Shown here one piece after another: positions 1,729 to 2,507 of a DNA stretch of 6,172 nt. The translations under genes were made by a program, and so were the position numbers. The notes beneath the pieces were generated by a model. The model was not told where the DNA came from. It was given only the letters and a program-made list of their open reading frames with translations, and made no database searches. Source of the DNA: Candidatus Mcinerneyibacteriota bacterium (GTDB taxonomy: Bacteria > AUK180 > JAQVHJ01); NCBI GenBank assembly GCA_030630935.1, contig DAOVMD010000200.1, positions 1-6,172 on the forward strand, read 5' to 3'. The number at the start of each line of letters is the position of its first letter. Positions within the stretch are counted from its first letter, which is position 1.

Positions 1729-1780
1729 GAACCGCTCTTATTTCTTATATTAAAATTTATTATTTTCATTGTATTGATTT

Positions 1781-1830
1781 GGGAGGATTAAGTTCTTTTG
1801 GTCAGGGCGTCCGGCCGGAAGCCCCTACTG
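1781..1830 (+). repeat. GC-rich palindromic repeat B, copy 1
   Basis: This 50-bp unit matches 2458-2507 at 47 of 50 positions. Its last 29 bases match the reverse complement of 2362-2390 at 28 of 29. The core 1805-1824 is a near-palindrome: GGGC, G, TCCGGCCGGA, A, GCCC, with one G-A mismatch. This GC-rich block contrasts sharply with the AT-rich flanks. The remainder of the 1682-1997 gap holds only a weak hairpin and promoter P2. A REP-like dispersed intergenic element is the best reading. Confidence 0.85.
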
Positions 1831-1898
1831 CTTGAATCAAACATTACGTTAATATATCAAAATATTGAAACTGAATTCATTTTTATATATAAATATTC

Positions 1899-1928
1899 TT
1901 GACTTTTCTCTTTTTGGTATGTTATACT
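1899..1928 (+). promoter_or_regulatory. Promoter P2 for the small membrane protein gene (sigma70-type, extended -10)
   Basis: TTGACT at 1899-1904 and TATACT at 1923-1928 are separated by 18 bp, with TG at 1920-1921 making an extended -10. It shares CTTGACTTTT and ATGTTATACT with promoter P1. The predicted start near 1935 leaves a leader of about 60 nt before the ATG at 1998. Confidence 0.8.
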
Positions 1929-1986
1929 GAATTATATGAAATAAAAATGGATGTTGCTAATGGAAAAGTATAAACAAACCAAATAA

Positions 1987-1991
1987 AGAGG
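1987..1991 (+). promoter_or_regulatory. Ribosome binding site deciding the ATG at 1998
   Basis: AGAGG ends six bases before the ATG at 1998, which is ideal spacing. An in-frame TTG two codons upstream (1992) would directly abut this site and is therefore unlikely to be the start. Confidence 0.7.
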
Positions 1992-1997
1992 TTGATA

Positions 1998-2348
1998 ATG
2001 AAAATTTATTGGTCATTGAAATCCATACCTGAATTAAAGTCTTTCCCGGAAAAAGAAAGGAAGAGGATTTGGAAAGAGAGTTATTCCAAGAGCTTTAAAC
2101 AAAGGAAAACTTGGGTAGCAATAATTTTAAGTTGGTTAGTTTTAGCTTTTGTTTATATTATATTAAGTTATTTTATAGCCGAATATTTCTTTTGGAATCT
2201 TTGGATTTCCTGGATAAGTTGGTTAGTTTTGTGTGGAATTTGGGCTCCTTTTTATACCATTATTATACAACGATTGACAATCCCAATCATTAGGGAAAAG
2301 TTTAATAAAAAATCAGAAGATAAAGACAATTTTGGTGTTAAAAATTAA
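1998..2348 (+). CDS. Small two-helix membrane protein of unknown function
   Basis: The 116-residue product is not a family I can name. It begins with a charged, cytoplasmic-looking segment (1-37) containing WSLKSIPELKSFPEKERKRI and several Lys/Arg/Glu residues. Two strongly hydrophobic, Trp/Phe/Tyr-rich helices follow at about 38-64 and 67-91, joined by a very short turn, and a hydrophilic C-terminal tail ends at 116. With two helices, both ends probably face the cytoplasm. The start at 1998 is fixed by AGAGG six bases upstream. The gene has its own promoter (P2), lies between repeat copies B1 and B2/B3, and appears monocistronic. The codon pattern (AT-rich, Lys/Ile-rich) resembles its neighbours. 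The promoter, ribosome binding site and sensible protein profile together argue that it is a real gene. Confidence 0.75.
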   Translation: MKIYWSLKSIPELKSFPEKERKRIWKESYSKSFKQRKTWVAIILSWLVLAFVYIILSYFIAEYFFWNLWISWISWLVLCGIWAPFYTIIIQRLTIPIIREKFNKKSEDKDNFGVKN

Positions 2349-2361
2349 ATTTTCTCAAAAT

Positions 2362-2390
2362 CAGTAGGGGCTTCAGGCCGGACGCCCTGA
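2362..2390 (-). repeat. GC-rich palindromic repeat B, copy 2 (inverted, short form)
   Basis: Read on the minus strand, this 29-bp element matches 1802-1830 and 2479-2507 with one substitution, which breaks the perfect TCCGGCCGGA core. It lacks the 21-bp GGGAGG-to-TTTTGG arm of the other two copies. It starts 14 bp after the stop of the small membrane protein gene and can still fold into a GC-rich hairpin, so it may protect or end that transcript, although no T-run follows. Confidence 0.8.
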
Positions 2391-2457
2391 TTATAATAAG
2401 TAAGTCACCCATTTGAAAAAAGAAATTATCAATGTTGCAAAGATTTTTATTTCACAC

Positions 2458-2507
2458 GGGAGGGTTAATTCCTTTTGGTCAGGGCGTCCGGCCGGAAGCC
2501 CCTACTG
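2458..2507 (+). repeat. GC-rich palindromic repeat B, copy 3
   Basis: This is a full-length 50-bp copy in the same orientation as 1781-1830, with three differences, all in the first 14 bases. The palindromic core TCCGGCCGGA is at 2487-2496. Repeat C follows within 60 bp. A 70-codon open frame over this area (2432-2644) consists of repeat and promoter sequence and is not taken as a gene. Confidence 0.85.

Follow-up and report, generated by a model that had tools for sequence, protein, structure and literature searches.

GTAG-type REP sequences bracketing a small membrane protein gene in Candidatus Mcinerneyibacteriota, and a RAYT-type gene as their likely mobiliser

The repeats that bracket a gene for a small predicted membrane protein in this Candidatus Mcinerneyibacteriota genome are very probably (about 0.9) GTAG-type REPs, one solo and one forming a REPIN/BIME-like dimer, of a genome-wide non-autonomous family whose most likely mobiliser is a RAYT-type gene carried by another contig (C326). 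The window, i.e., the whole stretch of 6,172 nucleotides that was analyzed, corresponds to contig C315 of a draft genome (3.16 Mb, 471 contigs, 80% complete). The sequence-only reading of this window had hesitated between a REP-like element moved by a transposase encoded elsewhere and a cassette boundary. The first proposal is well supported by the number of copies, their intergenic location, their GTAG foot, their head-to-head dimers and the REP-flanked RAYT-type gene of C326.

The two direct copies (1781-1830 and 2458-2507) are, as first described, identical at 47 of 50 positions and span 727 bp in total. The longest exact direct repeat of the window reaches 45 nt, compared to 11-18 nt in 20 mononucleotide shuffles. 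The inverted 29-nt copy reported after the gene was also found again (2362-2390, 28 of 29 positions matching), although it lies 13 nt and not 14 bp past the TAA stop codon (2346-2348). The contrast between a GC-rich, near-palindromic core and an AT-rich background holds, with 85% GC in the repeat core and 35% in the window. However, the element extends beyond the limits first drawn: a GTAG foot is found on the minus strand for both direct copies and on the plus strand for the inverted one. The covariance model of the family detects the three copies with E-values of 1.6e-14 to 3.5e-12, a match that is partly by construction since all three were included in the model. The features of the locus are listed in Table 1.

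Table 1. Features of the REP-bearing region of the window (bit scores: family covariance model, R1)
Feature	Positions	Strand	Description
REP 1 tail extension	1735..1780	-	Resembles the linker of long (~195-nt) head-to-head dimers, e.g., C10:12520 and C394:10824
REP 1 (solo)	1779..1830	-	GTAG foot, hairpin GGGCTTCCGGCCGGACGCCC, 3′ tail TGACCAAAAGAACTTAATCCTCCC; 75.1 bits
Sigma-70-like promoter of the 116-aa gene	1899..1928	+	TTGACT-18-TATACT; consensus scan; downstream of REP 1
116-aa predicted membrane protein gene	1998..2348	+	Flanked by REP 1 upstream and the dimer downstream; does not belong to the element
REP 2, left half of head-to-head dimer	2362..2413	+	Hairpin GGGCTTCAGGCCGGACGCCC; 64.3 bits
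Full head-to-head REP dimer (REPIN/BIME-like)	2364..2505	.	GTAG ... CTAC, 142 nt
REP 3, right half of head-to-head dimer	2456..2507	-	68.5 bits

REP 1 is probably the solo remnant of a long head-to-head dimer, since about 46 nt of long-dimer linker appear to persist beyond its tail; AATCCTCCCAAATSAATACAAT.AAAATAATAAATTTT is common to this extension and to the linkers, as judged by comparison and not separately scored. Its exact 28-nt core recurs on C96, C314, C326 and C456. REP 2 has a tail (TGATTATAATAAGTAAGTCACCC) almost the same as the one carried by the REP adjoining the RAYT gene on C326. Elsewhere in the window, another dispersed repeat (TTGCAGAGCGAAGCGATGC...) is present as two copies (1-73 and 145-217) that are 93% identical and 144 nt apart, and its core also occurs in five loci from other contigs of the genome.

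Read on the opposite strand, the REP unit consists of GTAG, a hairpin (GGGC..CCGGCCGG..GCCC) and a conserved 3′ tail of about 24 nt, for which three variants were found (TGATCAnnnGAACTTAATCCTCCC, TGACCATAAGAAATAAAACACCC and TTATCGTATGAAATAAGTATCCC). From this strand, the copies follow the common pattern CA-GTAG-GGG...CCC, with CA immediately 5′ of GTAG in 45 of 55 distinct copies. The GTAG and the GGG/CCC foot are invariant in all 35 aligned distinct copies; the search pattern selected GTAG-like feet, and the covariance model search had no strict GTAG requirement. Two copies, C143:7453 and C417:4381, carry a double foot (GTAG..CTAC). The middles of the palindromic stems alternate yet stay complementary (CTTCCGGCCGGACG, CGACCGGCCGGTCG, TTAACGGCGTTAA and CGAAGGGCCTTCG). 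Among the 35 distinct aligned copies, five of the eight stem pairs are altered on both sides, giving 36 such compensatory cells compared to 14.4 in shuffles, and shifting the partners abolishes this signal.

The 28-nt core has 39 matches in the genome (at most three mismatches, both strands; none for the reversed control), and 91 contigs together carry at least 124 copies detected by the covariance model at E ≤ 1e-3, a lower bound because no more than 150 candidates were scored. The repeat is hence not confined to this locus. No Rfam family reached its gathering threshold for the repeats of the window. Rfam matches of the dimer by E-value were rejected as generic long hairpins (e.g., plant miRNAs), and a literature search for the core yielded only chance matches in unrelated papers.

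None of the 77 readable copies lies inside an ORF of at least 120 aa, compared to 59% expected from random positions (context statistics covering about 164 kb of contigs). Copies located at most 260 nt apart form 13 head-to-head and two head-to-tail pairs but no tail-to-tail pair; the head-to-head pairs span 113-200 nt, the dimers being about 120 or about 195 nt long. The orientation and position counts that the sequence-only reading had called for show predominantly head-to-head close pairs and, for the readable copies, an extragenic location. Their gene contexts (22 tandem, 10 convergent and eight divergent) mirror the available intergenic space, and this count revealed no deficit of REPs in divergent gaps.

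This distribution bears on whether the hairpins are retained mainly as RNA elements, acting as transcription terminators or 3′ mRNA stabilisers. Roles of this type are known for REPs of E. coli, and in the window REPs 2 and 3 follow the stop codon of the 116-aa gene; folded as RNA, the dimer gives one long hairpin (-78.9 kcal/mol, z -10.1), and its transcription should place a strong 3′ hairpin on the mRNA of this gene. However, the hairpin is not followed by a T-run and the terminator scan of the window found no intrinsic terminator. A primary role in termination is disfavoured because of this lack of a terminator-like T-run and because the contexts follow intergenic space, without depletion of divergent gaps. 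Furthermore, an RNA role explains neither the specific GTAG foot nor the REP-flanked transposase. We therefore consider this explanation unlikely as the main one; an RNA role of the hairpins could be secondary.

The candidate mobiliser is a RAYT-type Y1/HuH transposase gene with an intact frame (C326:206-838, 210 aa). It was reached only via its 196-aa homologue from a sister genus (54% identity, E 5.9e-60) and was not among the first three finds of the PF01797 scan. The Pfam cut-off is narrowly exceeded (24.7 versus 23). The curated cut-off of NCBIfam NF047646 (80 bits) is missed, the sister RAYT reaching 60.5 bits; among the Y1 matches listed in the class, one passes it. Compared to E. coli TnpA-REP (PDB 4er8), the RAYT family gave an E-value of 0.0012 as a single sequence and of 3.8e-7 as a profile. 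Although sequence identity is weak, the HuH motif (MPNHLH), W172, Q173, R182 and Y193 align with residues of the E. coli protein, including the WQ and R contacts to GTAG and the catalytic tyrosine, Y115 in E. coli (PMC8266576). Inverted REP pairs are another feature shared with E. coli BIMEs, but REPs of E. coli contain a bulge and differ in stem sequence.

A head-to-head REP pair (941 and 1114) lies directly upstream of the RAYT start on C326, and one of its members carries the exact 28-nt core of the window together with the tail resembling that of REP 2. The gene itself contains a degenerate REP (L156:505-555, 26.5 bits) between the HuH and Y regions. The RAYT gene of the sister genus carries a trace at the corresponding place, whose tail is of the type found in the genome of the window and not of the sister's own type. 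A further repeat family (GAGTAAGAAGTAAGAGTT..CTCCCCTAATCGGGGAGTATTTTAT..GTTAACAGAGTTAACCG) occurs on both sides of the RAYT gene (L156:1-180 and 1200-1500) and at positions 330-540 of the window. The scan with PF01797 also found three other Y1 transposase genes in the genome, on C247, C338 and C343; they were rejected as movers, no REPs being found around them.

According to the proposed mechanism, the RAYT of C326, a predicted Y1/HuH single-strand transposase, would recognise the GTAG foot and the hairpin on single-stranded DNA, cut next to them, CA preceding GTAG in most copies, and move the unit into intergenic sites. Characterised TnpA-REPs cut at CA or CT (PMC8266576). The copies of the window would have landed in this way in the spacers flanking the 116-aa gene.

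Among the 41 genomes searched, only that of the sister genus (G001) also has these repeats (50 model matches); genomes of the same class belonging to the other family gave no covariance model match. The copies of G001 display the same hairpins (e.g., GTAGGGGCTTCCGGCCGGAAGCCC) with different flanks and are mostly arranged in head-to-tail arrays, compared to the head-to-head dimers found here. In two of its loci (L118 and L133), the repeat units of these arrays measure very roughly 130-440 nt. The gene of the 196-aa Y1 protein is embedded amid REPs. In the fetched flanks of 14 RAYT homologues from other genomes (13 related at the domain level only, one from the same class), a GTAGGG-type hairpin was found beside or inside the gene in every case; for nine of the 11 homologues with a readable frame, it is located within the gene, in frame, after the HuH motif and before the tryptophan.

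Other dispersed repeats of the genome exist with and without an internal REP (C275/C187, C273/C415 and C165/C140). In C275 and C187, the 79 nt that end with ...AATGC show 95% identity; C275 continues with an insert of about 260 nt that contains a REP, and the two sequences then rejoin. In the two other pairs, the left junction is located at this break point or within a few bases of it. The left break corresponds to the GTAG end, and the right junctions vary. These filled and empty sites support movement or GTAG-directed recombination, short of proving catalysis by the RAYT; we infer that the units probably transpose and that the RAYT would be the catalyst.

The same junctions could be read differently, the family being an old immobile interspersed repeat that was spread as a mosaic by recombination or duplication rather than by the RAYT. 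The modular flanks common to several copies would fit such a history, and mosaic recombination may contribute because the right junctions of the filled sites vary. As a full account it is nevertheless improbable: the GTAG foot recurs as the left junction, the sister genus has the same hairpin with different flanks, and the frame of the REP-flanked RAYT is intact. Assuming mobile REPs, a more specific proposal is that the mobile unit comprises the hairpin together with its lineage-specific tail of about 24 nt, moves only as a solo or head-to-head unit and, when inserting, favours one constant position (..AATGC|AGTAG) within a second dispersed repeat. We put this forward as a tentative and rather doubtful idea; if true, one mobile family would use another as landing pads.

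The second proposal of the sequence-only reading was that the direct copies delimit a module, so that recombination between the two would bring in or remove the 116-aa gene. The bracketing copies indeed share 94% identity and the same orientation, at a distance of 677 bp, and the gene is an orphan: the homology search found a single copy of it and nothing homologous in G001 or elsewhere in the class, and its product matches Pfam DUF6170 below the cut-off only. However, the bracketing repeat is found at 120 or more other places, the gene neither accompanies REPs elsewhere nor is multi-copy, and the lower bracketing copy belongs to a head-to-head dimer with the inverted copy, downstream of the gene. 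Deletion between direct copies is possible for any such pair and does not imply a designed boundary. The cassette idea is unsupported and appears highly improbable, given an orphan gene that occurs once and bracketing copies that do not stand out from the rest of a dispersed family. G001 has no detectable asd homologue and lacks the 116-aa gene; no syntenic relative was found, and relatives of Asd come only from distant MAGs (49% at best). Each of the first three genes in the window is preceded by a promoter-like stretch (TTGACTTTT...ATGTTATA; 650-682, 1894-1926 and 2611-2643), with 66-75% identity among these stretches over 44 nt.

The family of GTAG-type REPs proposed here shares with previously described GTAG-tagged REPs, REPINs and BIMEs (Di Nocera 2013, PMC3733652; Bertels & Rainey, PMC3116915) the GTAG foot, an 8-10 bp stem, covarying subfamilies, dimer spacers of 20-100+ bp, head-to-head as the usual dimer type, an intergenic location and more than 100 copies. 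It differs from them by its conserved 3′ tail, which is longer (~24 nt), accompanies nearly every copy and varies between sister genera, by the lack of tail-to-tail dimers among those seen and by its uncultivated host lineage. The system of C326 also resembles TnpA subclass 2.4, characterised by a REP in frame between HuH and Y, three G-C foot pairs and double-foot REPs (Corneloup 2018, PMC6006769). The GGG/CCC foot, double-foot REPs and flanking REPs are found here as in the REPtrons of this subclass; unlike in these, the only REP inside the RAYT gene is degenerate, and D178 stands where E. coli has E100.

REPs or REPINs with a cognate RAYT are a known kind of system, of which this is a new example in an uncultivated lineage. 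Its REP/RAYT pair kept the hairpin between genera, and the tail and arrangement changed. The spread of REPs is not directly observed in most systems; the comparison of filled and REP-free copies of host repeats marks the end of the element and bears on how REPs spread. It should also be emphasized that REP pairs around a gene need not mean a cassette.
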